Assembly (NCBI GenBank): GCA_029552825.1
Contig: JAKPDL010000019.1
Span: 1-58,111 of the forward strand
Direction of reading: 5' to 3'
DNA: 58,111 nucleotides
Origin: Bacteroidota bacterium
GTDB taxonomy: Bacteria; Bacteroidota; Bacteroidia; Bacteroidales; VadinHA17
Shown here: positions 22,147-53,629 of the stretch, piece after piece
How the letters are laid out: each line of letters begins with the position of its first letter
Numbering within the stretch: position 1 is the stretch's first letter
The notes under the pieces: model-generated
What the model saw: the letters and a program-made list of their open reading frames with translations, nothing else
Told to the model about the DNA's origin: nothing
Database searches by the model: none
Translations under genes and position numbers: made by a program

Positions 22147-23742
22147 TTATTTTCTTTTTATTTCGAAATCAGTTGAATCCACCCATCCAGCTGATTTTGT
22201 ATTTAGTTCACCTTTCATGAATCTGTTGTAGAAGTCACGCACTTTTTCATCGGCATAGGTATACCTGTCGAAAATATCACCTTTCCCCAGTATTCTAGGA
22301 TCTTGTTGTTCGGAAAGCAGCTCGAACATTGTTTCTCTCATTTTCTGCCATGCGGAGCTGTAGCCGGGGTTATTTATCAGGTTGTCAACGCAATCGGGAT
22401 CTATTCCGATTCTGTACAATTCTTCCGCTCCTCTTTGCCCGAACGACAGATTCCAGTAATTAAGGTCACTGCCTGAGCGGCGGAGGCTCAATATCCACGA
22501 TTTTGTGGGACTACCGTCGCAATTGAGGTAACCTGTTTCGGGATTTCCTGCTGGCCATCTTCCCGGCCTGAAGTTTCTGATATATAGAAAATTGTTCTGT
22601 ATTATGGCTCTTACAGGGTAGCCAACATCGCCAGGCCGTCCGACATCATGTCGCTCTTTGCCGAGAAGGATATAATTTCGAGATTTGTCAATTACTTTAT
22701 TCTTTCTTGTGAAGAAGATGTTTGTAAGGCTTTTCCCTTCAATGGGCTGCATTCCGCACTTTTCCAGGTCTAATCCTGCTACTTCAAGAAGGGTTGGCGC
22801 GATGTCGATAAAACTTATGAGGTCGTAAACTATTCTTCCGGGCCTTTTGATCCCTTTCTTCCACATTATAGCAAGAGGGATGTGGTTGGAATATTCATAA
22901 ACCTGCCCTTTGGCACGCGGGAAAGGCATGCCGTTGTCACCGGTTACAATAACAATAGTGTTGTCGAGTTCTCCTCTTTCACGGAGGATTTCGAGCATCT
23001 TAACGAGATGGCTGTCGAAGTGTTCTATTTCAAAGGCATAATCGAGAAGGTCGTTTCGAACAATCTCATTATCGGGAAGGAATCTGGGAACCCGTGGGAT
23101 ATCTTCCAGACGTTTGCCTCCCTTTGTTACTCCTGAGCCATATTCATAACCGCGATGAGGTTCTCTCGAGCCGTACCAGAAACAGAAAGGCATATTATCA
23201 GGCCTTGAATTCAGGAAATCCTCAAAATTTCCGGCGTAGTCAATGTTTGAGATTCCTTTTGCAGGTGGTACAAGCTGTTTTGCGTTATAGGCTTTACCTG
23301 TCAGTTCTCTTGGTTTTCCGGTACTGTCCAATGCCACACCGGGCGCCCATCCCTTCGCGGTATAGCCTGTGAAGTATCCGTTTTCGCCCAGAACTTCTAT
23401 AAATGATTTGAATTTTACCGGAAAGTAAGGTACATGGTTTGCTGCTTCTTCCAATTGCCATGAGTTCCTGCCCGTCAGGAAGCATGCTCTTGAAGGCGAT
23501 GACTTGGAATTGGGCGTGTAGGCATTGTAAAAAAGAAGTCCTTCTTTTGCAACTCTGTCGAACCCGGGTGTCTTGATCCATGAAGTGCCATATGCCCCCA
23601 TATGAGGATATGAAATATCGTCACCCATCGCTATCAGAATATTAGGTTTCCTACCTGAAAGTTTTTCACCATGCTCTCCCGCACATCCGGATAACAACAG
23701 TGGCGAAACCAGAATCAAAGTTCCAATGTGAAAGGGTTTCAT
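22147..23742 (-). CDS. S1 family sulfatase, Ser-type, lipoprotein
   Basis: About 531 residues starting [13 protein letters not shown] choose this ATG because the lipoprotein signal (LLLSGC) then has normal length. The frame also extends to a GTG at 23757 that overlaps the receptor's stop. The alkaline-phosphatase-fold sulfatase is clear: metal site [12 protein letters not shown], activation motif [12 protein letters not shown] with Ser81 as the residue converted to formylglycine, and [15 protein letters not shown]. It resembles heparan N-sulfatase-type relatives. By family knowledge Ser-type enzymes need the radical-SAM maturase anSME, which is not in the window. It is the fourth gene of the window's lipoprotein-receptor-sulfatase-glycosidase group when counted back from the glycosidase. 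Confidence 0.9.
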
Positions 23743-23753
23743 GTTTTCAAATA

Positions 23754-25988
23754 TCACAATTTTCCAGTTAATCTCACGCTGATATTTCTGGGTGGCTGTA
23801 TATCGCCCGGACGTCCCATATACTCGGTGTTTGTAGCGTTTTTCAACGCCATAGATATTTTCAGCCAGCGGTTGATGTTGTAACCCAGACTCAGATCTGC
23901 TGCAAAATAACCTGTGTTATGAGTCAGCCAGTAGTCGTAGAACCCCGGCAGTATTGCTTCTCTTGTCATCGGATCGACGAATACATCATCTATGTTGAGG
24001 ATCCTGGATCTTATATATACTGTAAATTCCGATTCCAGCTTCTTCCATGCAGCATTAAGGTTTAGCTTGAATGAATGTTTTCTTCTGTATTTCAGATAGG
24101 TAATTTCACCAGAAGGTGCACCTGCCCTCATGTCTATGGGCATAACAAAAGTGTATCCTCCGCTCATTGTGGTGTTAAGGCTGCCGGTTGAGCGGTTAAG
24201 CAGAAACTCAATCTCAGCACCGTAGATCCTCGATTGTTCAATGTTGTCTGCCCTGAAACCGAGTCCGTCGGGATAGACGCCGAAAAGATACTCTATGAAG
24301 TTTTTGTTCTGTGAGAAGAATAACGAGAGATCGGCCTGTCCGGTTATGTTTTTACCGATGAGGATGCCCTGTTTTATTCCGGCTTCGGAACTCCAGCCCG
24401 ATTCGGCCTGCAGTGTTGGGTTGGGGAAGATAGTAACTGAGCCGAGGGTTGTAGAAGCATGTTTCTCGGCTATTGACGGGAACCGGTAACCCTGCCCGAA
24501 TGATGCCCTGATGAAGGTATAATCAGCAGCCTGCCAGTTTACCCCGGCTCTGAAAACTGGTACGATTTTATCGGCATCAGAATCTAGAATGTTCTGCTCC
24601 AGTCTTACTCCGGCAACAAGTTTAAGCCTTTCCGACGGTTTCATTTCTGCCTGCCCGAAAGCAGCAATGTTAATACCATTATGATCGCCGAAAAAATTAG
24701 AATTGATTTTATTCCATGTTTCAGATACTCCTGCAGTGATACTCACTAAATCTGAAAGTTTGTACCATAGCTGGTATTCAGAGTAAATGGAGAAAGTACG
24801 TGCGTTGTTTTTCACCTTCACCGGAAAGCGGTTTTCGTTCGATTGTATTCTGGCTCTGAAATCATGCCTGAAACGTTCCTGCTTCGAGTATGATATGAAA
24901 GGGTCGGCCGCCATAAACCTTCCGTGCAGAAACGATACACTTGAAGTGTCCTGAATAAGAGCTGAATCTTTTGCATTGCCCCACAGCAGGAAATCAGTTT
25001 TATCAGTGAGACCTCCGGTGAAATTGATTCCGTAATTGAGCCCTTCTGTTTTTTCGCTGAAGTGTTTGACTTTCAGACTTACTTTTCCGAGTTTTTCGTC
25101 GTTGAATTTTCTGTAGCTGTTATCTGTGAAAAGGTTAACAATAAATCCGAGATCGGTGCTGCCTTCCTTTCTCAGGTGTGTAAAAGAAACTGTGGAGAAG
25201 ACTCTCGGTGTTGTCCACCATTTCCATTCTTCGTTGCCGGGTTTGCAGTATAGACCTGCTTCGGCAAAAAACTTTGTAACCGGTATATTGCTTGCATCGG
25301 CAGTGCGGAAGTTTATTATTCCGTTAAGCGCGGAGGAGCCGTACATAACCGATGATGCTCCTTTTATTATCTCAACCTGCGACAGGTTTTCAACCGGCAG
25401 GTATTGCCACCTGATGCCTCCGGCATCGGGCGAAAGCAGAGGAAGTCCGTCAACAAGCGCCATCACCCTGCTACCGACACCGTAACTGAACCCGCTTCCG
25501 CCTCTTATGGAAGCCTGACCGTCGAGTACCTCAATGCCAGATGTCTTTGTTATCAGCTCGGTAGCATCGGTAATATGGTTTCTCGACAGAAAGTCGGCTT
25601 TGATAACCGATACCGAAACAATCATTTCCGAAATTTTGTGTTCAACCCGGTCGGCACTTACAACAATCTGATCTATCGAATGAGTTTCGGTTTCGAGCTG
25701 GACATCAACACTATGAACCTCACCCCTGCGGAGGCTGATCTGCCGTATTACAGTTTTGTATCCTATATATTGAAAGGTAACAGTAATTTTTGCGGAATCG
25801 GTTTTGAATGAATAGTTTCCATATTCGTCGGTTGAGGTGCCGAGCCCGTTTCCATAAATAACATAGACTCCTGCAAGGGGTTCTCCGGTGTCCCTATCAG
25901 AGACTCTGCCTTTTATAACAGACTGAGCATTAAGTACCGGAATAATATTACCCGCAAGTAGAATTATCGCAGATAGAAATAACCTCAT
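23754..25988 (-). CDS. TonB-dependent outer-membrane receptor
   Basis: A 744-residue receptor with signal peptide ([22 protein letters not shown]), a CarboxypepD_reg-like domain ([20 protein letters not shown], about 22-105), a plug ([39 protein letters not shown]) and a barrel ending [13 protein letters not shown]. The size is that of siderophore/vitamin-type receptors rather than SusC (about 1000 residues), and no SusD follows. Its start overlaps the stop of the small lipoprotein gene upstream (ATGA at 25985-25988), and the sulfatase follows 11 bases downstream. The tight packing suggests it imports a ligand linked to the sulfatase or to the lipoprotein, but metal or cofactor uptake is equally possible. 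Confidence 0.88.
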
Positions 25989-31767: not shown

Positions 31768-32538
31768 ATGAAAATGAGAAATATAGGTCTTTTTATGTTA
31801 CCGGTGATTGTCATCGGAGTAATATCATGTACTTCAAAACAGCCTGCAGGTAGTCCGCAGGCATTGCTGGCGGAGATTGACAGAAATGCTCCACCCAATA
31901 CTCTTACAAAGAAAGAGGCAAAGAAGGGGTGGCAGTTGTTGTTTGATGGTAAAACAACCAATGGATGGCGTGGATATAATATGAAAGAGTTCCCGGATTG
32001 CTGGGCAATTGAAGACGGGGCACTTACAATGAACACAACAGGAGGTGCCGAAAGTCAGGATATTATAACAACGCGCAAGTATAAAAATTTTGTGTTGAGT
32101 CTGGAATACAAACTTACTCCGGCTGCAAACAGTGGGATAATGTATCAGGTAGAGGAGGATACTATTTATAAATTTCCTTATGAGACCGGTCCTGAATTTC
32201 AGGTAATTGACAGTGACGGCTGGCCAGAAAAGCTTGAGGAGTGGCAGGTAAACGGCGCCAATTACGCCATGTATCCTCCCCGTGTAAAACCATATAAGCG
32301 TGTTGGAGAATGGAATCATGCAATGCTGATAGTAAATGGTAATAAAGTGACTCAGATACTGAATGGAGAAATTGTTGTAGAGTACGAAAAGTACTCTGAT
32401 GAATGGAACAAGCTTCGTAACAGTGGTAAATGGAATGATTATCCCGATTGGGGGAAATTCGATGAGGGCTATATTGCGTTACAGAATCATGGAACGAAGG
32501 TGTGGTATCGAAATATCAAGCTCAAGGAACTTGATTGA
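31768..32538 (+). CDS. DUF1080 (3-keto-disaccharide hydrolase-like) lipoprotein
   Basis: 256 residues, lipoprotein signal (VIVIGVISCTSKQ, Cys about 19). The concanavalin-like domain of PF06439 is recognisable by KKGWQLLFDGKTTNGWRGY, WAIEDGALTMN, FVLSLEYKLTPAANSGIMYQ, YEKYSDEWNKLR and a conserved end GYIALQNHGTKVWYRNIKL. Characterised members in Bacteroides hydrolyse 3-keto-disaccharides made by a Gfo/Idh-type dehydrogenase; no such dehydrogenase is in this window, though a sugar isomerase/epimerase is (39391). It lies divergent from the PQQ-like gene and convergent with the ApnL-like gene. Confidence 0.85.
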   Translation: MKMRNIGLFMLPVIVIGVISCTSKQPAGSPQALLAEIDRNAPPNTLTKKEAKKGWQLLFDGKTTNGWRGYNMKEFPDCWAIEDGALTMNTTGGAESQDIITTRKYKNFVLSLEYKLTPAANSGIMYQVEEDTIYKFPYETGPEFQVIDSDGWPEKLEEWQVNGANYAMYPPRVKPYKRVGEWNHAMLIVNGNKVTQILNGEIVVEYEKYSDEWNKLRNSGKWNDYPDWGKFDEGYIALQNHGTKVWYRNIKLKELD

Positions 32539-36289: not shown

Positions 36290-37825
36290 ATGAAAAATGA
36301 GTTGTATATTGCAAGTTTAGGATGCATTTTGCTTCTGCCTGCCTGCGGGCAAAAGAATTATGAAAAGCCGAATATTGTATTTATCCTGGCCGATGACCTT
36401 GGTTATGGTGATGTAAGTTTCCTTAATCCTGATTCAAAAATACCCACGCCCAACATTGACAGGATAGCCCGGACGGGAGTTACTTTCACCGATGCACATT
36501 CATCTTCAGCTGTAAGTACCCCTACAAGATATGGATTACTTACTGGAAGATACAGCTGGAGAAGTGAAATGAAAAGCGGAGTGCTGAATGGTTATTCGGA
36601 AGCATTAATTCCTGAAAGCAGAAAAACAATAGCTCAGATGCTCAGAGAAGTTGGTTACAATACTGCCTGTATCGGGAAATGGCATCTGGGATGGAAATGG
36701 AACAACATCGAAAAAGGCAATGACAGCGTTGATTTTTCGAAACCTATTACCGATGGTCCCACCGAAAGAGGGTTTGATTATTTCTTTGGAATCAGTGCCT
36801 CGCTCGATATGCCACCATATGTTTATGTGGAAAATGATATGCCTACCTCAATGCCTGACAGAATAACCACAGGCAACAATATTTCATATGGTAATCCTGG
36901 TTATGATGGTTCGATGTGGAGGGAAGGACCAACTGGAAGTGATTTTTTTCATATTGAATGCACCCCGGAATTTTTCCGCAGGGCTGGCAAATACATTGAA
37001 GAGAAAGCACGGGAGAAACAGCCTTACTTCCTTTACCTTGCACTGTCATCGCCTCATACCCCTATCCTTCCAACGGATGAATTTAAAGGTAAATCAGGCA
37101 TAAATCCATATGCCGATTTTGTAATGATGGTTGATGCCGAAGTGGGCAAACTACTTGATATTATAGAGGGAACGGGTGAAAGTGAAAATACAATTATTGT
37201 TTTCACCTCTGACAATGGTACTGCGCCATGGGCGGATATCAAAACACTCAAATCGAAAGGACACATGACAAGTTATATTTTCAGAGGCTACAAAGCCGAC
37301 CTTTATGAAGGGGGTCACAGGATACCATGTTTTGTGAGTTGGCCCGCCAGGATAAGAAAACCTCATGTTGTTGGGCAGACAATATGTCTTAATGATTTGT
37401 ATGCGACTTTTGCGGCTGTTACGGGATATAAAATAGCTGATAATGAGGCTGAAGACAGTTACAATCTTCTACCGGCATTGCTTAAACCCGGATACAGGAA
37501 GATTATAAGAGAAGCAACAGTCCATCAGTCGGTTAATGGCAATCTTGCAATAAGAAAAGGCGACTGGAAGCTTTTAATGACGCCAGGATCGGGAGGCTGG
37601 AGTTTCCCGCGGCCGGGAAGGGAAGAGGAAGGACTGCCTCCAGTACAGCTTTTTAATATGAAGGATGACCCATCAGAACAGAAAGACCTTCAGGCTGAGT
37701 ACCCCGAAATTGTTAAAGAATTAACAGAACTATTAAAGAAATACATAGAAGATGGGCGCAGTACCCCAGGCATTCCTCAGAAAAACGAAGGGGAATTTCC
37801 TGCTAAGCTAAGATTCTGGGAATAA
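36290..37825 (+). CDS. S1 family arylsulfatase, Ser-type, lipoprotein
   Basis: 511 residues with a short lipoprotein signal (ILLLPAC, Cys19). Sulfatase motifs: metal site NIVFILADDLGYGDV, activation motif SSAVSTPTRYGLLTGRYSWR with Ser76 in the formylglycine position, GKWHLGW, SSPHTPILPTDEFKG and IIVFTSDNGTAPW. Overall closest in style to arylsulfatase A/N-acetylgalactosamine-6-sulfatase-like members, but the substrate cannot be read off. It follows the alpha/alpha-barrel gene by 5 bases. Its stop codon is one base from the end of the convergent apiosidase-like pseudogene. Confidence 0.92.
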   Translation: MKNELYIASLGCILLLPACGQKNYEKPNIVFILADDLGYGDVSFLNPDSKIPTPNIDRIARTGVTFTDAHSSSAVSTPTRYGLLTGRYSWRSEMKSGVLNGYSEALIPESRKTIAQMLREVGYNTACIGKWHLGWKWNNIEKGNDSVDFSKPITDGPTERGFDYFFGISASLDMPPYVYVENDMPTSMPDRITTGNNISYGNPGYDGSMWREGPTGSDFFHIECTPEFFRRAGKYIEEKAREKQPYFLYLALSSPHTPILPTDEFKGKSGINPYADFVMMVDAEVGKLLDIIEGTGESENTIIVFTSDNGTAPWADIKTLKSKGHMTSYIFRGYKADLYEGGHRIPCFVSWPARIRKPHVVGQTICLNDLYATFAAVTGYKIADNEAEDSYNLLPALLKPGYRKIIREATVHQSVNGNLAIRKGDWKLLMTPGSGGWSFPRPGREEEGLPPVQLFNMKDDPSEQKDLQAEYPEIVKELTELLKKYIEDGRSTPGIPQKNEGEFPAKLRFWE

Positions 37826-40489: not shown

Positions 40490-41998
40490 ATGAAACCACA
40501 AAAAAGAATCAGACGTCGCGAGTTTGTTAAGAAAACTGCTATGGCGGCAGCAGCAGCGACAATTGTTCCGGGATTTTTTATGGGATGCACCCGTAAAACG
40601 GAACCAATGAAACGCTTGCTTGGACGCACAGGCTTTGCAGCCACGACACTGGGTCTGGGCGGACAGGCTTCCCTTCAGTGGACACCGGAAGGCATTGATC
40701 CGGTTAAGATAATTCTTAAGGCATTTGACCTCGGAATTAACTACTTTGATACTTCCAACCTTTATGGTCCCAGCCAGCTTAATTTCGGAAAGGCTTTCAA
40801 AATTCTGAAACTGATACCCGGAGAGGCTGGATATAACGAATATCTCAGGAAATCAATCTTTCTTACCACTAAAACACATCTGCGATATGCAAAGGGTGGT
40901 GATGATGTGCCCGGCGTAAGTAACCGGACTAACGGGGAGCCCGGAAGCAAAACGATAGATGACCTGAAAAGGTCTCTTTCACAGATGTTCGGTGACGGGC
41001 TGGGTAATTATCCGGAAGGAGCATACGTGGATATGGTACTATTCCATAATCTCAACACAAGGGAAGAGGTTGATGCTATCTATGAGGGAATAGAAAATAC
41101 CAATCCGGATATGGAAAGAATTGGTGCCCTGGCAGCATTGCGCGACTACCGGAATGGGACAAACTTAACCGGGCTGAATCCGAAAAATGAAAAACTGCTA
41201 CGGCATATCGGTTTCTCGGGACACCACGACCCTTCCGTTAACATGTACATGATTCAGCGCGACAAATACGACCTGCTCGATGCAATGCTTGTTGCAATAA
41301 ATGCAAACGATAAGCTGATGTTCAATATGCAGCATAACGTTATTCCACTTGCAAAAGCAAAAAATATGGGGGTTATAGGGATGAAGGTCTTTGCAGACGG
41401 AGCCATGTACACAAAACCTGCCCGGTGGTCGGGTACACCTGAAGATGTTGTGATGACTGTGGGCGACAGTACACTTCCCAGCCGCCCGCTGATACAATAT
41501 GCACTAACCACACCCGGGGTTGACCTGGTGATAATAGGAATCGGTCATATCAGCGACAACGATGAAGAATGCCAGCTTGTACAGAATTTTTCGGCGGCAC
41601 AAATACTGCCTGATGGTCTGTCGGAACAGGAGCGTGCTGAAATTGAAAAAATGGCAGCAAAGGTGAAGGACGGAAAGACAAATTATTTCCAGCTTCCGTC
41701 CCGCGGACTTGTACCACCGGGAGAAGTAAAAGCTGACCAGGTGATTGAAAATAATACCAGAAAAATTGTTATTGGCTGGAGTACAGCTTATGCCCTCACA
41801 TCACCCCTGAAGAAATACGTAATACTCAGGGATAATCAACCAGTGCATGAACAGGATTTTTCTCCACAGCTTACAACGGATTTATTTACATGGTCGGAAA
41901 CAATTACCGACAGGGAACCGCATTCATATACAGTGAGAATAGTAGATTCTTCAGGTAATACTGCTGATTCAGAATCTGTTACTATTGAGAAGGTTTGA
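40490..41998 (+). CDS. Tat-exported aldo/keto reductase with C-terminal fibronectin-like domain
   Basis: 502 residues. The N terminus IRRREFVKKTAMAAAAA is a twin-arginine signal, followed by a lipobox-like FFMGC. The AKR barrel (about 37-370) shows LLGRTGFAATTLGLGG, the catalytic FDTSNLYGPSQ block (Asp and Tyr), FLTTKTHLRY (Lys) and VLFHNLNTREE (His), so the tetrad looks intact. Residues about 400-502 form an extra beta domain, fibronectin type III-like (IVIGWSTAYALTSPLKKYVI, PHSYTVRIVDSSGNTADSES). Tat export of a folded NADPH-type enzyme would place it outside the cytosol with its cofactor bound. Role in the region unknown. Confidence 0.82.
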   Translation: MKPQKRIRRREFVKKTAMAAAAATIVPGFFMGCTRKTEPMKRLLGRTGFAATTLGLGGQASLQWTPEGIDPVKIILKAFDLGINYFDTSNLYGPSQLNFGKAFKILKLIPGEAGYNEYLRKSIFLTTKTHLRYAKGGDDVPGVSNRTNGEPGSKTIDDLKRSLSQMFGDGLGNYPEGAYVDMVLFHNLNTREEVDAIYEGIENTNPDMERIGALAALRDYRNGTNLTGLNPKNEKLLRHIGFSGHHDPSVNMYMIQRDKYDLLDAMLVAINANDKLMFNMQHNVIPLAKAKNMGVIGMKVFADGAMYTKPARWSGTPEDVVMTVGDSTLPSRPLIQYALTTPGVDLVIIGIGHISDNDEECQLVQNFSAAQILPDGLSEQERAEIEKMAAKVKDGKTNYFQLPSRGLVPPGEVKADQVIENNTRKIVIGWSTAYALTSPLKKYVILRDNQPVHEQDFSPQLTTDLFTWSETITDREPHSYTVRIVDSSGNTADSESVTIEKV

Positions 41999-45310: not shown

Positions 45311-46840
45311 ATGAAAAATATCCTGATTATGTTGAAAAAAGCATTTGTGCTAATAATGGGTATACTTGTATATTCCTGCACAGGAAAACAACCAGTTCTG
45401 ACAGAACCGATATTTAACCCTTCTTTTACATCTGATATTGAATCATTCGGGCAGTACAACTATCCGGAGTGGTTCCGCGATGCCAAGTTCGGCATCTGGG
45501 CTCACTGGGGGCCACAGGCCGTTCCGCGCCAGGGCGACTGGTATGCCCGTAAACTCTATGAAGAAGGAGGGCCAGTTTATAAATATCATCTTGAACATTA
45601 CGGCCATCCCTCAAAATTCGGTTATAAGGATATTATACCTCTCTGGAAAGCTGAGAGATGGGACCCCGACAGTCTGATGGCACTTTACAAAAGGGTCGGA
45701 GCAAGATATTTTGTAAGCATGGCAACACACCACGACAATTTTTTCCTCTGGAATTCTAAAATCCACAGATGGAATTCCGTAAATATGGGTCCTCAGAAAG
45801 ATGTTGTTGGTTTATGGCAGGAGGCGGCAAGAAAATACGGGTTGCGTTTCGGTGTCTCAGAACACCTTGGAGCCAGTTTTACATGGTTTCAGGTGAGTCA
45901 TGGCTCAGATAAGACGGGTCCGATGAAGGGTGTGCCATACGATGGCGCAAATCCCGAGTACCAGGATCTTTATCATTGGCCCGCTGCTCCCGACGATAAA
46001 GGATGGCTTACAAAAGACACAGCTTACCATAAAAGATGGCTTGCCTGCATAACAGAACTAATCGATATGTACAAACCTGACCTGCTATACTCCGACAGCG
46101 AACTACCCTTTGGCGAAACAGGCCGTAAAATGCTGGCACACTTTTATAACCAGGATATTGTCAAAAACAACGGCGGGCTTGAGGCTGTCTATACCTGCAA
46201 ACACCTTGCATCTGAAGGACGATGGGTGAGGGATATCGAACGAGGAGCAATGGATACAATCAGCGCCGATCCCTGGCAGACCGATACCTCAATAGGCGAT
46301 TGGTACTACCGCACCGGACAGAAATACATGACCGGTACCCAGGTAATACAGATGCTTGTGGATATCGTGAGCAAGAACGGCAACCTTCTGCTCAATGTGG
46401 TTCAGACACCCGAAGGAGACCTCGAACAGGATGTCCTTGACATACTTGAGGAAATAGCTGCCTGGATATCCGTCAACGGGGAAGGAATTTACGAAACACG
46501 CCCGTGGAAGGTCTATGGCGAAGGACCCTCGATGAAGAAACAGGAAAAGGGACGTTTCGGAGGCGTAAAGGACGTCAGAACCTATCAACAGGCAGATATC
46601 AGGTTCACTTCAAAAGGGAACACCCTTTATGCATTCGTAATGGAAAAGCCTTCGGAAGATATAAAAATTGCTTCACTCGGAAAGAAAACATGGCCTGAAA
46701 CTGTCAGGGTCAAATCAGTTAAGATGCTGGGCAGTGATGAAAGACTCAAATGGAAGCAGGAAGATAGTGCCCTCATTATCTCCCTGCCGGCCAGGCTTCC
46801 GGAATGGAAGGTTACATGCTTCAGGATTGAATTGAAATAA
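45311..46840 (+). CDS. GH29 family alpha-L-fucosidase, lipoprotein
   Basis: 509 residues with a lipoprotein signal (MGILVYSC, Cys23). GH29 features in order: EWFRDAKFGIWAHWGPQAVP, the histidine pair ATHHDNFFLW, WNSVNMGPQKDVVG, the predicted nucleophile region PDLLYSDSELPFG (Asp262) and the C-terminal beta-sandwich with ISVNGEGIYETRPWKVYGEG. It would cleave terminal alpha-L-fucose with retention. Location: lipid-anchored, periplasm or surface. The next gene, a beta-helix protein, starts 33 bases downstream and is probably co-transcribed. Confidence 0.92.
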   Translation: MKNILIMLKKAFVLIMGILVYSCTGKQPVLTEPIFNPSFTSDIESFGQYNYPEWFRDAKFGIWAHWGPQAVPRQGDWYARKLYEEGGPVYKYHLEHYGHPSKFGYKDIIPLWKAERWDPDSLMALYKRVGARYFVSMATHHDNFFLWNSKIHRWNSVNMGPQKDVVGLWQEAARKYGLRFGVSEHLGASFTWFQVSHGSDKTGPMKGVPYDGANPEYQDLYHWPAAPDDKGWLTKDTAYHKRWLACITELIDMYKPDLLYSDSELPFGETGRKMLAHFYNQDIVKNNGGLEAVYTCKHLASEGRWVRDIERGAMDTISADPWQTDTSIGDWYYRTGQKYMTGTQVIQMLVDIVSKNGNLLLNVVQTPEGDLEQDVLDILEEIAAWISVNGEGIYETRPWKVYGEGPSMKKQEKGRFGGVKDVRTYQQADIRFTSKGNTLYAFVMEKPSEDIKIASLGKKTWPETVRVKSVKMLGSDERLKWKQEDSALIISLPARLPEWKVTCFRIELK

Positions 46841-46873: not shown

Positions 46874-48985
46874 ATGCGATTCCGGAACATCATTCCTTTA
46901 TTGCTTTTTTGGCTTGTTTGTTACAATCCTTTATCTGGTCAGAAAATTTATCTTTCTCCTTCGGGAGACGACACTAATCCGGGTACCAGTGAAAAGCCCC
47001 TTGCAACACTTACAGCAGCCCGCGACAAAGTGAGGGAATTACGCAAACAGGGAAGTATCACGAAACCTGTGGAGATAGTCGCCCTACCCGGTGAATATTT
47101 TCTGATGCAACCACTTGTACTGAGCACAGAAGATTCAGGAACTGAAAACGCACCGCTTGTTATAAAATCTGATGCAGGAACGAAGGCAGTTTTCAGGGGA
47201 GGCGTTGAACTGAAAGGATTTGAGAAAGTTAATGATAAACTTTGGAGATGCTTTATCCCTCAGGTTGCTTATTATAATTCATACTTCGAACAACTTTATG
47301 TGAACGGACGGAGGGCAATAAGAGCAAGAGAACCTGATGAGGGATTCGCAGTAGTAAAAACTGTTAAGGAAACAGTACTCGATAAAGGTTCAGGCAGAGC
47401 ACCTGCGCTTGCAGTTCAGAAGATTGGGATCGACTCCCGGCATGCCGCAATGGTAAGAAACTTTACAGATGACGATTTCCGCGATGCCCTGATAATTTTC
47501 TACCATAACTGGGATAATACACGAAAGAGAATTCTCGGCTGCAGCAGTGATTCTGCCTTCATATTTACGGCCGGACAGGGGATGAAACCATGGAATCCCA
47601 TTAACAGTAAATCGAGATACCTTATCGAAAACTTCAGGGCAGCACTTGATACTCCCGGTGAGTGGTTCCTCGACAGATCGGGTTACCTTTATTATATTCC
47701 CCGTGAGGGTGAAACCATCGAAAACACAGAATTTATTGCGCCTGTTCTGAAGGAGTTTGTGATTCTAAAAGGTGAATCACCTGAAAAGCCTGTTTCCAAT
47801 ATTGTATTTGAAAACCTCGTTTTTAATTATGCCGGCTATCTTACTCCGGCCGACGGCAACGAACCGGCTCAGGCAGCCGCCCCGGTAAGTGCTGTAATGA
47901 CAGCTGATTTTGCTAAAAACATCTCCTTCTCCGATTGTGAAATTGCCCATACCGGAACTTATGCCTTCTGGTTCAGAAGGGCGGTGAACAATTGCCTTGT
48001 TACAAAGTGTTTTATGCATGACCTTGGCGCAGGTGGAGTAAAAATTGGCGAAACAATCCTGCGGCAGTCTGTTGATGAGTTAACACATCATATAACTGTT
48101 GACAATAACATAATTACTGATGCCGGACATGTATTTCCATGCGCTGTTGGAATTATCATATTCCATGGAAGTGATAACCGTCTCACTCATAATGAAATAT
48201 CAAATCTCAGGTATTCAGGCATTTCCGTGGGGTGGATCTGGGGCTATGCTTACAGTCCGTCGAAGAGAAACCTGATTGCATATAATCACATACATCACCT
48301 TGGCTGGGGAGAATTATGTGACATGGGAGGAGTATATACACTTGGTGCTTCAGAAGGAACGGTTGTTTCAAACAATGTGATTCACCATGTCTATTCTTTC
48401 GATTATGGCGGCTGGGGACTCTATACCGACGAAGGCTCTTACGGAATCGTTATGGAAAAGAATTTGGTTTATCTATGTAAAAACTCCGGCTTCCACCAGC
48501 ATTACGGAAAAGAAAACATAATCCGCAACAACATATTTGCATTTAACATAAGAGCACAGCTTCAGGCAACAAGGGTTGAAGAACACAGGTCGCTGAGTTT
48601 TACCAATAATATTATATATTTCGACAGGGGGACACTTACTTCCAGTAACTGGCATAAATTCAACCTTTTTACCGATTATAACTGCTACTGGGATATACGC
48701 ACAAAAGAATTAAGATTTGGTGACAGGACATTTGCGGAATGGCAGAAGGAAGGAAAGGATCTGCATTCAGTTATTGCCGATCCCATGTTTGTTGACCCGG
48801 TAAAGTTCGACTTCAGATTTAAGAATCTTTCGGTTGCACGCAGAATAAAATTCGTTCCGTTCGACTATTCACTTGCAGGCATTTATGGTGATGAGGAATG
48901 GAAAAAGAAAGCTGTGCTTGACCCTGAACTGATAAAAAAATTTGACGAAAGAGTGACAGAAATGGAAAAACAGGTAAAAAAATAA
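46874..48985 (+). CDS. Secreted right-handed beta-helix glycosidase (GH141-like)
   Basis: 703 residues with a signal peptide ending NPLSGQ. The start IYLSPSGDDTNPGTSEKPLA, then LTAARDKVRELRKQG and IVALPGEYFLMQPLVLST, is typical of the GH141/DUF1565 beta-helix group. Helix coils follow (NISFSDCEIAHTGTYAFWF, NCLVTKCFMHDLGAGGVKIG, NRLTHNEISNLRYSGISVGW, SNNVIHHVYSFDYGGWGLY). The first described GH141 enzymes include an alpha-L-fucosidase acting on rhamnogalacturonan-II and a xylanase. Its place after a GH29 fucosidase fits a fucose-containing substrate. The family call is from layout and motifs; a related lyase fold cannot be ruled out. Confidence 0.75.
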   Translation: MRFRNIIPLLLFWLVCYNPLSGQKIYLSPSGDDTNPGTSEKPLATLTAARDKVRELRKQGSITKPVEIVALPGEYFLMQPLVLSTEDSGTENAPLVIKSDAGTKAVFRGGVELKGFEKVNDKLWRCFIPQVAYYNSYFEQLYVNGRRAIRAREPDEGFAVVKTVKETVLDKGSGRAPALAVQKIGIDSRHAAMVRNFTDDDFRDALIIFYHNWDNTRKRILGCSSDSAFIFTAGQGMKPWNPINSKSRYLIENFRAALDTPGEWFLDRSGYLYYIPREGETIENTEFIAPVLKEFVILKGESPEKPVSNIVFENLVFNYAGYLTPADGNEPAQAAAPVSAVMTADFAKNISFSDCEIAHTGTYAFWFRRAVNNCLVTKCFMHDLGAGGVKIGETILRQSVDELTHHITVDNNIITDAGHVFPCAVGIIIFHGSDNRLTHNEISNLRYSGISVGWIWGYAYSPSKRNLIAYNHIHHLGWGELCDMGGVYTLGASEGTVVSNNVIHHVYSFDYGGWGLYTDEGSYGIVMEKNLVYLCKNSGFHQHYGKENIIRNNIFAFNIRAQLQATRVEEHRSLSFTNNIIYFDRGTLTSSNWHKFNLFTDYNCYWDIRTKELRFGDRTFAEWQKEGKDLHSVIADPMFVDPVKFDFRFKNLSVARRIKFVPFDYSLAGIYGDEEWKKKAVLDPELIKKFDERVTEMEKQVKK

Positions 48986-50030: not shown

Positions 50031-51605
50031 ATGACAAACATTAACAAAGCTGGAAGTTATCTTTTAACAATTGTAAGAATTGCCATTGGCTGGCAATTCC
50101 TTTATGAAGGTATCGCCAAAATTATTGCAGGAAACTGGACGTCAGCACCTTATCTTGCAGGCTCAAAATGGATACTTGCGCCTCTTTTTACAGCAATGGC
50201 TGACAATCAGGCTGCTGTTGCCTTTGTTGATTTTATAAACATATGGGGTATGGTGCTTGTAGGAGTCGGACTTATGCTTGGTCTTCTGTCGAGATGGGCA
50301 AGTGCAGGCGGAGCATTGATGCTTCTACTCTATTTTATGGCGTACCCTCCTATACCCGGATATATGACCGGTGTACCCACTGAAGGCAGTTATCTGTGGG
50401 TAAACAGAAACCTTATTGAACTATTTGTCCTGGCAATTTTTGTTTTCATCTCTCCAGCTTCACACTACGGACTCGACAGACTTATAAAGAGATGGAAAGA
50501 AGAGAGGGCGCGTCAGCCTGTGCCTGAACCTTCAGGAGGTAAAGAAGCTGCCTCACAACGTCGCGAACTGCTGAGGGATCTTATATCCGTTCCTGCTATA
50601 GGTGCTTTTGCATATGCATTATACCGCAAGAGGAAATGGGACAGCTTTGAGGAAAGACTGCTTAAGGTACAGGGCATTGATGCAAACACCGGTGCAACAC
50701 TTCTTACCTTCACTTATACCTCTTTAAAGGAACTTAAAGGTCAAATTCCGAAAGGAGTTATTAAATATAACGGTAAGGATGGAAGTCAGTCGCAGTTCGA
50801 ACTCAGCCGTATCATAATGGGAGGTAATCTTATCGGGGGCTGGGCTCATGCACGTGACCTTATTTATGTGTCGAAGCTGATAAAGACATACCATACCGAC
50901 GAAAAAGTAATGCAGACTCTTGCACTGGCTGAAAAATGCGGTGTGAACGCACTGCTGACAAACCCGCAGCTCGGGAGAATATTTCAGAAATATAAGCATG
51001 AATTTAGAAGCAAAATGAAATTTATCTCCGACTGCGGAGTAGGACTCGATTTTCAGAAGGGTATTGCAATGTCGCTGGCCGTTGGTGCCGATGCTCTTTA
51101 TTGCCAGGGCGAGATTACAGACCGCTGGACAGATGAAAACTGGAAAGACCCTCAGAAGAGAACACCTGAACAGCGGATGGAACTGATAAGCAAAGGCATC
51201 GAAGAAATCAGAAGCCACGGCAAACCTGCAGGAATAGGTGCCCACAAAATTGAGGCAATAAAGAAGTGTGTAGAGTACGGAATTAAACCGGATTTCTGGG
51301 TAAAAACCTGCCATAGCCACAACTACTGGTCGGCTAAAGCAAACCCCGAATGGCACGACAATATTTTTGATTATGACCCGGAGGAAACAATCAGGTATAT
51401 GGCAACTTTGGAAGAGCCATGGATTGCCTTCAAAGTGCTGGCAGCCGGAGCAATAAAACCGGAAGAAGGCCTTAAGTATGCCTTCTCAAACGGAGCCGAT
51501 TTTGTGTGCCTCGGAATGTACGATTTCCAGATAGTTGAAGATATCAACATTGCTCTCGACACTTTATCGTCAATAACTGAAAGGCAGAGACCCTGGAGGG
51601 GATAG
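50031..51605 (+). CDS. DoxX membrane domain fused to a TIM-barrel-like domain through an internal Tat-like segment
   Basis: 524 residues. The first 150 are a DoxX-type four-helix membrane domain (LLTIVRIAIGWQFLYEG, WGMVLVGVGLMLGLLSRW, NLIELFVLAIFVFI). Residues 176-197 read QRRELLRDLISVPAIGAFAY, which looks like a twin-arginine signal (RR at 177-178). The remaining 320 residues are a soluble domain (IIMGGNLIGGWAHARD, LAEKCGVNALLTNPQ, KPAGIGAHKIEAIKKCVEYG, FKVLAAGAIKPEEGLKYAFS) that looks like a TIM barrel of the aldolase or AKR-like kind. The natural reading is a fusion of a quinone-linked membrane subunit with an exported enzyme. Function unknown; it is unlike any DoxX protein I can name. Confidence 0.7.
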   Translation: MTNINKAGSYLLTIVRIAIGWQFLYEGIAKIIAGNWTSAPYLAGSKWILAPLFTAMADNQAAVAFVDFINIWGMVLVGVGLMLGLLSRWASAGGALMLLLYFMAYPPIPGYMTGVPTEGSYLWVNRNLIELFVLAIFVFISPASHYGLDRLIKRWKEERARQPVPEPSGGKEAASQRRELLRDLISVPAIGAFAYALYRKRKWDSFEERLLKVQGIDANTGATLLTFTYTSLKELKGQIPKGVIKYNGKDGSQSQFELSRIIMGGNLIGGWAHARDLIYVSKLIKTYHTDEKVMQTLALAEKCGVNALLTNPQLGRIFQKYKHEFRSKMKFISDCGVGLDFQKGIAMSLAVGADALYCQGEITDRWTDENWKDPQKRTPEQRMELISKGIEEIRSHGKPAGIGAHKIEAIKKCVEYGIKPDFWVKTCHSHNYWSAKANPEWHDNIFDYDPEETIRYMATLEEPWIAFKVLAAGAIKPEEGLKYAFSNGADFVCLGMYDFQIVEDINIALDTLSSITERQRPWRG

Positions 51606-51988: not shown

Positions 51989-53629
51989 ATGAATCAGTTA
52001 TCTTTTCTATCCTTCTGTATTGCCGGCGCCCATATCTTTTCAGCACAGATCTCTGCTCAGAAAAGTGAGGCAAAACCTAATATCATCCTTATACTTGCCG
52101 ACGACATGGGCTACTCCGACATTGGATGTTTTGGTTCGGAGATAAAGACCCCCAACCTCGACCGGCTGGCACAGCAGGGATTGAGAATGACACAGTTCTA
52201 CAACGCTTCGCGCAGCTGCCCTACACGGGCCTCACTGCTTACCGGACTCTACCAGCACCAGGCCGGAATAGGAGATATGGTTTCGAACCTAGGATACCCG
52301 TCATACCAGGGTTATCTGAATGAAAAATGCGTGACAATAGCCGAGGTACTGAAGATGAACGGTTACAGAACATATATGTCGGGCAAGTGGCATGTGGGCA
52401 GTCAGTCCGAAGTGCACCCCCTCAGGAGAGGCTTCGACCGTTATTTCGGTCTGATTGATGGTGCCGGAAGTTATTTCAAACCAATTGCCTACAGGCCAAA
52501 TATGAAACCCGTCAGATGGATGCTCGACGATAAAGATTTCTTTCCGCCTGATACTGGATTTTATATGACTGATGCTATCGGTGATTATGCACTTTCATTC
52601 ATTAAGGAAAGGGATAAAAATGAACCGTTTTTCCTCTATATGGCATTCACCGCACCTCACTGGCCACTTCATGCATTGCCTGAGGATATCGAAAAATACC
52701 GGGGAAAATACATGATGGGCTGGGATAAGCTCAGGGAAGAAAGGTATAACCGTATGCTCTCAATGGGTATTATTGACCCTTCTGTGAGACTTTCGCCCCG
52801 CGACGTAAGGGTGCCTCAGTGGGATACTTTGCCTGAAGCAACAAAAAAGATGTGGGACCTCCGTATGGCTGTTTATGCAGCAATGATCGACCGTATGGAT
52901 CAGAATATTGGCAAGGTTATAAGTTATCTGGAGAAAACAGGTGAGATGGACAATACGTTGATAATCTTTCTTTCCGATAACGGTGGTTGCCACGAATCAA
53001 CCCGCAGTCAGGCAGAGTTCCTTAAGGTGAAAGGAGAGACCGGTACCCCTGATTCATTTGATGCATACGAATACCCGTGGGCAAATGCAAGCAACACCCC
53101 GTTCAGAATGTTCAAGCACTGGGTGCATGAAGGTGGAATAGCAACGCCGTTTATAGCTTATTACCCGAAGCTGATAAAGGGTGGCAGAATTGATTCACAG
53201 ACAGGGCATATAATAGATATCATGCCTACTATTGTGGAACTTACAGGGGCAAACTATCCTGACAGGATTGTGGAACTGGAGGGACTGGAAAATCCAGAAA
53301 AATTTAAAGAGAGAGATATTATTCCTATGGAGGGGATAAGTCTTGTACCGGTTTTTAAAGGGAAAAAACTGAAGCGGAAATCTCCTCTCTTCTGGGAGCA
53401 CGAAGGGAACTGTGCCGTAAGGTATGGCGACTGGAAACTGGTTTCGCTCTATGATAACTCAACCCGGAAATCTGGCATGTGGGAGTTATACGATATGAGA
53501 AACGACCGTTCGGAACTGAATGACCTCAGTGAAAAATTCCCCCGTAAAAAGCTGGAAATGATTGAGATGTACGAAAAATGGGCAACACGGGTCGGTGTTG
53601 TTCCAAGAGAACAGATAGACAGAAGGTAA
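51989..53629 (+). CDS. S1 family sulfatase, Ser-type, secreted
   Basis: 546 residues with a signal peptide ending FSAQISAQ. Motifs: metal site NIILILADDMGYSDIGCFG, activation motif YNASRSCPTRASLLTGLYQHQ, GKWHVG, TAPHWPLHALPEDI and LIIFLSDNGGCHES. Aligned to C/S-x-P-S/T-R, the residue converted to formylglycine is Ser76 and the Cys is at the x position; relatives often have CCPTR here, so a Ser in place of the first Cys is noteworthy. The length and the HQAGIGDM block fit the arylsulfatase A-like group with a long C-terminal part. It is followed after 6 bases by a truncated glycosidase remnant. Confidence 0.92.
   Translation: MNQLSFLSFCIAGAHIFSAQISAQKSEAKPNIILILADDMGYSDIGCFGSEIKTPNLDRLAQQGLRMTQFYNASRSCPTRASLLTGLYQHQAGIGDMVSNLGYPSYQGYLNEKCVTIAEVLKMNGYRTYMSGKWHVGSQSEVHPLRRGFDRYFGLIDGAGSYFKPIAYRPNMKPVRWMLDDKDFFPPDTGFYMTDAIGDYALSFIKERDKNEPFFLYMAFTAPHWPLHALPEDIEKYRGKYMMGWDKLREERYNRMLSMGIIDPSVRLSPRDVRVPQWDTLPEATKKMWDLRMAVYAAMIDRMDQNIGKVISYLEKTGEMDNTLIIFLSDNGGCHESTRSQAEFLKVKGETGTPDSFDAYEYPWANASNTPFRMFKHWVHEGGIATPFIAYYPKLIKGGRIDSQTGHIIDIMPTIVELTGANYPDRIVELEGLENPEKFKERDIIPMEGISLVPVFKGKKLKRKSPLFWEHEGNCAVRYGDWKLVSLYDNSTRKSGMWELYDMRNDRSELNDLSEKFPRKKLEMIEMYEKWATRVGVVPREQIDRR

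Follow-up and report, generated by a model that had tools for sequence, protein, structure and literature searches.

What kind of protein results when a single reading frame carries a DoxX membrane bundle, an internal twin-arginine signal and a soluble, enzyme-like domain? The window analysed here (the whole stretch of DNA studied, 58,111 nucleotides from the Bacteroidota bacterium assembly GCA_029552825.1, contig JAKPDL010000019.1) encodes such a protein, in which an internal Tat-like segment, RRELLRDLISVPAIGAF, lies between the DoxX helices and a barrel (residues 176-195 read QRRELLRDLISVPAIGAFAY; Table 1). An earlier note on this DNA took the frame for two fused genes, with the old Tat signal now acting as a fifth membrane helix, and proposed a single-protein, quinone-linked sugar dehydrogenase. 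The element that it missed, and that we consider key, is a predicted flavinylation motif, which would supply the redox cofactor for this idea.

Table 1. Features of the fusion gene, in positions of the window
Feature	Position	Strand	Basis or remark
Whole ORF: DoxX, Tat-like helix 5, predicted flavinylation motif, aldo-keto-reductase-fold barrel	50031..51605	+	ATG start, 524 aa
DoxX four-helix bundle and next cytoplasmic helix, residues 6-160	50046..50510	+	Pfam, model helices, conservation
Twin arginine R177-R178	50559..50564	+	Invariance in alignment rows
Helix 5, Tat-signal-like h-region, then RKRK	50586..50639	+	Model helix 186-203, P188
Motif DANTGAT (residues 217-223), a predicted ApbE flavinylation site with FMN predicted on Thr223	50679..50699	+	Motif definition, conservation, controls
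Barrel (residues 238-524) of aldo-keto reductase fold; invariant residues of its own at strand ends	50742..51602	+	Model, fold search

The structure of the fusion protein was predicted with AlphaFold2 (mean pLDDT 88.1, pTM 0.81) from a 132-row alignment, whose rows were chosen for diversity (<76% identity) from 80 loci and the listed matches. The model agrees with the earlier reading of the membrane part and of the C-terminus. The four DoxX helices (6-33, 60-83, 87-104 and 126-139) form a membrane bundle and are followed by a helix at 148-160 and by two more at 171-183 and 186-203, the last of which, preceded by the invariant arginine pair of the Tat-like segment, stands in the place of a fifth membrane helix. 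The tether between helix 5 and the barrel is modelled with low confidence, residues 215-228 falling below pLDDT 50. The soluble C-terminal domain (about 238-524) opens with an N-terminal hairpin (241-247, 253-259) and continues as an eight-stranded barrel. The DoxX (PF07681) profile scores 23.2 bits on the window protein, the cut-off being 23.6. At E ≤ 1 it finds 25 of the 34 rows of an alignment, including the window protein itself (best 8.9e-08); many relatives among the matches listed carry a precomputed PF07681 annotation. Six residues of this part (R16, G20, W21, E26, G27 and K30) are each present in 95 to 97 of the 98 DoxX-bearing rows. Thiosulfate:quinone oxidoreductase DoxDA is a quinone-linked member of the DoxX/DoxD family; its equivalog model (TQO) scores 15.7 on the window protein, compared with a cut-off of 300.

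Relatives of the protein are numerous. A search of about 5.8 billion proteins, with scoring confined to the 7,998 candidates that had the most words in common, gave at least 5,088 matches at E ≤ 0.001. The 120 matches listed are 467-541 aa long and at least 71% identical to the window protein, and are called, where a name is given, DoxX family protein, YphA (DoxX/SURF4 family) or hypothetical. When species genomes were scanned, at least 554 relatives were confirmed, and the titles among the best 80 of these, which were kept, include Bacteroidota, KSB1, Acidobacteriota, Planctomycetota, Kiritimatiellales, Hydrogenedentota and Sumerlaeota; most of the records are MAGs, and the taxon names are those given by the depositors. 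The distribution is patchy. Surveys with the stand-alone paralogue of the same genome as query (E ≤ 1e-15) found carriers in one of 395 phylum genomes (the window's own) and in 32 of 393 order genomes. A search of phage sequences gave no match, and one of plasmids gave a single DoxX-only match. In a same-genus genome (L093:1276-2535) the frame of the fusion starts inside DoxX and does not include the upstream helices, and is perhaps a decaying copy. These data bear on the possibility that two unrelated domains were joined by chance or misassembly, helix 5 being an ordinary Sec-inserted helix. Positive charges do flank helix 5 on both sides, so that its orientation is ambiguous by charge alone, but all 120 relatives among the matches listed are approximately full length, carriers occur in several phyla and the arginine pair is invariant, and we regard such an accident as very improbable. 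The predicted architecture is more than chance, since it is found in several phyla and R177-R178 is fixed although columns 168-176 vary.

All 98 DoxX-bearing rows of the alignment have R177, R178 and P188, and the nine columns that precede the arginines are highly variable. Immediately after helix 5 the same rows have a mean of 3.4 K+R versus 2.0 D+E. Mean charge is net positive in the N-terminus, the second loop and the linker, and near neutral and negative in the two outer loops, which fits a topology with the N-terminus inside, four helices, the twin arginine in the cytoplasm and the barrel outside. On two hydrophobicity scales, helix 5 lies below helices 2-4 on one and about equals helix 3 on the other, and is no weaker than helix 1 on both. 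A genome profile search finds TatC encoded in the window's genome. In the relevant part of Tooke et al. 2017 (PMC5449189), the last helix of dual Sec/Tat proteins is described as having low hydrophobicity and being followed by positive charges. The invariant arginines and P188, the charges after helix 5, the TatC gene and this precedent together support the reading of an old Tat signal as fifth helix, and the barrel, predicted to be exported, would very probably be so by Tat.

Between helix 5 and the barrel, D217-ANTGA-T223 matches exactly the ApbE motif, D-x-x-[S/T]-G-A-[S/T]. As described in the consulted part of PMC12052999, this motif has a minimal length of seven residues, FMN is joined to its last Thr or Ser, and mutation of the Asp to Ala has minor effects while that of the Gly to Ala approximately halves flavinylation. 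The form D..[ST][GS]A[ST] is found in the linker of 85 of the 98 DoxX-bearing rows, 48 of them having the exact form and 37 having S in place of the published G; S at this fifth position is not among the substitutions described in that part of PMC12052999. The other 13 rows depart further (for example SGST, SEAT, TTAT and TGPT) and include some acidobacterial rows with a displaced or absent Asp. The last residue of the motif is Thr or Ser in all 98. One locus with the exact form is L024, from a strain of Maribellus maritimus. Outside the linker there is no match to the motif at 46,032 other positions of the 98 proteins, and shuffled linkers are expected to give 0.13 rows with the motif and 0.03 with its exact form. 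In the order survey, 30 of the 32 carrier genomes contributed the 31 loci that were read. The 25 with a detected DoxX N-terminus, the window's included, have the exact motif (21) or a near one (four), and the remaining six comprise two motif-less stand-alones, two locus-edge fragments and two with unrecognised N-termini. FMN_bind (PF04205) has no match on the window protein at E ≤ 10 and one at E 0.21 among 34 rows. From the motif and its conservation, covalent flavinylation at the predicted site is probable.

An ApbE is encoded in the window's genome (profile E 1.3e-84, frame of 338 aa, N-terminus MIVRKLVILIILSSLVLFSC), together with two FMN_bind matches in a profile search. The ApbE at L083:1420-3771 of this genome has a lipoprotein-like start and adjoins an NqrF-like gene, both judged by eye. 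Among tested carriers without a Bacteroidota taxon in their title, four of which are titled only 'bacterium', ApbE was found in 20 of 20, versus 58 of 98 Acidobacteriota-phylum genomes (p 0.00014), a control that covers one phylum only, is unmatched for genome size and had the carrier G806 removed. For the five carriers with Acidobacteria-type names the corresponding figures are 5/5 versus 58/98 (p 0.15). Within the order the comparison does not discriminate, because ApbE is equally common in carriers (29/32) and in non-carriers taken by handle order (28/32); it was not detected in three order carriers, one of them a 99%-complete genome. The acidobacterial relatives L070, L075 and L080 have altered motifs (ATAGAT, IASAT and TASAT forms), yet their genomes encode ApbE.

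The window's genome also encodes a DoxX-less paralogue of 352 aa, with the Tat-like N-terminus KRRNIIKGIFAGIPFLTFF and no motif, and a second same-genus genome has a copy that is alike and has similar flanking genes. Stand-alone homologues of the C-terminal part with Tat signals, as a fusion of two genes would lead one to look for, are thus present. The DoxX gene that might have been expected beside them is absent from the flanks of the two stand-alones inspected (about 1.0 to 1.5 kb). In the subfamily to which the paralogue belongs, 26 of 27 fusions have an exact or near motif (19 exact). Among 17 selected stand-alones of this subfamily the exact motif is absent and a near form occurs once, and the twin arginine is kept in all 17. 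These 17 were chosen by judgement, P0198, P0207, P0218, P0224 and P0227 having been dropped because each was probably a contig fragment or had its place elsewhere. By the scoring used for a 161-row tree the dropped P0198, P0207 and P0224 bear the motif, P0227 has EAITGAT and P0218 has none, and the excluded DoxX-less row P0239 has DATSGAS. Outside the 17 there are therefore DoxX-less rows with a motif, perhaps fragments. P0301 and P0360 are also motif-bearing by this laxer scoring; by the stricter one only P0301 is, as a near form.

In a 48-row tree the stand-alones are scattered among the fusions, and the state of DoxX changes seven times, at least three of these changes being forced by well-supported branches; long branches meet at the outgroup with unsettled bootstrap, and changes were counted with no direction given. 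The own-genome paralogue and P0247 stand beside the fusion P0245 on starred branches. Direction of the tree aside, we read this scatter as later loss of DoxX. The proposal of a gene fusion holds in that Tat-signal stand-alones exist; those found would be products of such a loss and do not look like an ancestral half of the fusion. The absence of both elements we read as a repeated joint loss of DoxX and the predicted motif. For the 161-row tree the 34 rows without a full DoxX were sorted by their N-terminus into 22 stand-alones and 12 excluded as truncated or unclear, and the labels of 25 survey rows were taken from the reading of the order survey. Of its seven supported independent pairs, an average of 3.8 agreed, 0.2 disagreed and 3.0 were uninformative, and the sign test (median p 0.125) is not significant and is underpowered. 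We read DoxX and the putative flavin site as one functional unit that would tend to be lost together.

A fold search with the model gave aldo-keto-reductase type throughout the 50 matches listed, all at 9-20% identity. The type follows from the title or from the general affiliation of the protein, Kv beta subunits included, and a few titles (3erp, 9nz6) read only oxidoreductase. Foldseek with the better model returned only four chains at E ≤ 0.001, and a ribulose-phosphate 3-epimerase was among these. With a first, weaker model (34 rows, pLDDT 79.1) aldo-keto reductase was at the top and IMP dehydrogenases were close behind; an IMP dehydrogenase profile match (E 0.12) was discounted. Structure prediction and fold search thus point to a fold of oxidoreductase type, as had been suspected, and not to an unrelated one. 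The aldo-keto reductase profile (PF00248) has no match on the window protein at E ≤ 10 and reaches E 0.14 on one relative. Profile-profile comparison (hhalign) of the barrel with aldo-keto reductases or DeoC aldolases was not significant, the template profiles being shallow because only 9/30 and 19/30 loci were left for use after a length filter. The relation of the barrel to aldo-keto reductases appears to be visible by structure only. Elsewhere in the window, at 40490-41998, a Tat-signal-like protein (RRREFVKKTAM) has, by eye, an aldo-keto-reductase-like sequence.

In aldo-keto reductases the ends of strands 2, 3 and 4 bear a catalytic tetrad, Asp-Tyr-Lys-His. With the register set by strand order, the 132 rows have no conserved Asp or Tyr at 306-318 and no conserved Lys at 331-338; position 330 holds Lys in 48 of the 132, and position 359 holds Gln in 111 and His in 17. 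The barrel has instead a set of 29 residues identical in 132/132 rows, among them N266, H273, R275, D276, H405, K425, H428, K468, D498 and Q500. Without the NAD(P)H-using tetrad, it is FMN and not NAD(P)H that would be the redox partner of the barrel. The stand-alones that have neither DoxX nor the motif keep these invariant residues, so the chemistry of the barrel may not need flavin. An alternative is that the DxxSGAT sequence is an unflavinylated structural or recognition motif in a membrane-tethered enzyme whose fold derives from that of aldo-keto reductases and that is not a redox enzyme at all, such as a lyase, an isomerase or a class I aldolase using K425 or K468. The pair of invariant lysines where strands 6 and 7 end, the presence of DeoC-type aldolases and other barrels among the weaker fold matches, the stand-alones that dispense with the motif and the lack of an FMN_bind domain in the window protein all favour it. 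It leaves unexplained, however, the match to the seven residues reported in the consulted part of PMC12052999 as sufficient for ApbE, as well as a motif fixed in position, found nowhere else in these proteins and always ending in a Thr or Ser acceptor, and we consider it distinctly unlikely. We also compared K425 and K468 with the two active lysines of deoxyribose-phosphate aldolase. The correspondence was one of strand order only, aldolases ranked below aldo-keto reductases, and it was not adopted; no aldolase is among the 50 fold matches listed, which excludes nothing.

The genomic neighbourhood gives no conserved operon partner: among 518 neighbour ORFs from 78 of the 80 loci, the top cluster is found at 12 loci, in scattered positions. 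ProA- and ProB-like genes (by eye) lie downstream at six of the 78. A beta-helix-looking protein is encoded at 46874-48985, and at eight of the 78 loci a similar gene is found upstream of the fusion, at a distance of one or two genes. The absence of a conserved neighbour suits a self-contained enzyme. By eye, the surroundings in the window resemble a glycan-degradation neighbourhood, with three sulfatase-like genes, one DUF1080-like and one fucosidase-like (22147-23757, 36290-37825, 51989-53629, 31768-32538 and 45311-46840). This carbohydrate-rich setting suits a sugar-like substrate and is only suggestive; our guess at the substrate is a carbonyl or sugar-like compound.

On balance we favour a single-chain, flavinylated periplasmic oxidoreductase that would be inserted by both Sec and Tat and would exchange electrons with the membrane through DoxX. 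Sec would insert the four DoxX helices with both ends cytoplasmic, and through the twin arginine Tat would then take over helix 5 together with the folded barrel, leaving the barrel outside, as topology and precedent suggest. An exported ApbE would attach FMN to Thr223 in the flexible tether, and the tethered flavin would shuttle electrons between a membrane pool, reached via DoxX and probably of menaquinone, and a substrate in the barrel. Predicted Tat export and flavinylation are well supported; the quinone linkage and the substrate we infer. A protein that is likewise exported by Tat and flavinylated might use DoxX as an anchor or docking partner only and take its electrons from another complex, for example Nqr or Rnf. 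Electron transfer through DoxX is itself part of what we infer, the ApbE of the window's genome adjoins an NqrF-like gene (by eye), and two flavinylated reductases are thought, in the consulted part of PMC8238504, to be fed by components encoded elsewhere in the genome. Against a mere anchor, there is no conserved partner gene nearby, and DoxX and the motif tend to go missing together while the Tat segment and the barrel stay, which suggests that DoxX serves the flavin. We consider the anchor rather unlikely, and retain, as slightly more probable than not, the oxidoreductase that would be coupled to the membrane through its own DoxX.

It is conceivable, if somewhat short of probable, that the protein represents a new class of respiratory enzyme on one polypeptide, with a quinone-reactive DoxX, a Tat helix, a swinging FMN and a flavin-using barrel with a new active site. 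We found no description of a self-contained enzyme of such domain make-up in the open-licence literature. DoxX together with ApbE was not found in open-licence full texts, an account in a subscription journal being possible; DoxX goes unmentioned in the best-matching open-licence papers on ApbE, flavinylation and FMN-binding; and a term search did not find it in the main texts of PMC5449189, PMC8238504, PMC11334425 and PMC12052999. Among open-licence papers, DoxX co-occurs with twin-arginine only in work on copper resistance, with aldo-keto reductase only in work on BLUF photoreceptors and vaccine strains, and with quinone, membrane protein and Bacteroidetes only in work on heme transport. If the reading is correct, possibly thousands of environmental sequences would be flavin-linked periplasmic oxidoreductases, and the DoxX family would acquire a defined and testable role in electron transfer. 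ApbE would gain a new class of substrate and flavinylation a new domain context; Tat would gain another polytopic client family, and dual Sec/Tat insertion a new domain context; and the aldo-keto reductase fold would have a further branch, one that may act beyond the cytoplasm and independently of NAD(P)H.

The nearest Tat precedent is given by the dual Sec/Tat polytopic proteins, namely the actinobacterial Rieske protein, the MoCo protein Sco3746, a polyferredoxin and the long YkuE. As described in the relevant part of PMC5449189, they share with the fusion twin arginines directly before a weakly hydrophobic last helix, positive charges after it and an external soluble C-terminal domain, and in two of the families the number of helices is likewise five; their membrane part is not DoxX, however, and their exported domain is different. 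The ApbE-flavinylated proteins, which include NqrC, RnfG, PceC, NosR and the flavinylated fumarate and urocanate reductases, are alike, in the consulted parts of PMC8238504, PMC11334425 and PMC12052999, in having D-x-x-[ST]-G-A-[ST] at a predicted extracytosolic site and an ApbE in the genome. Unlike in these substrates, the motif of the fusion lies in a disordered tether and not in an FMN_bind, DUF2271 or NqrB/RnfD domain, and is joined to DoxX and to a barrel of aldo-keto reductase fold; the FMN_red proteins of the same sources offer a precedent for a motif located in an unstructured extension. With the DoxX/DoxD family (PF07681, PF04173) the fusion shares the four-helix bundle and a near-threshold profile match, and it differs in that its DoxX bears its own exported, enzyme-like domain. 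With the aldo-keto reductase superfamily (PF00248) it shares the predicted fold of the barrel, and differs from it in having no Pfam match, in not keeping the tetrad positions and in its predicted export.
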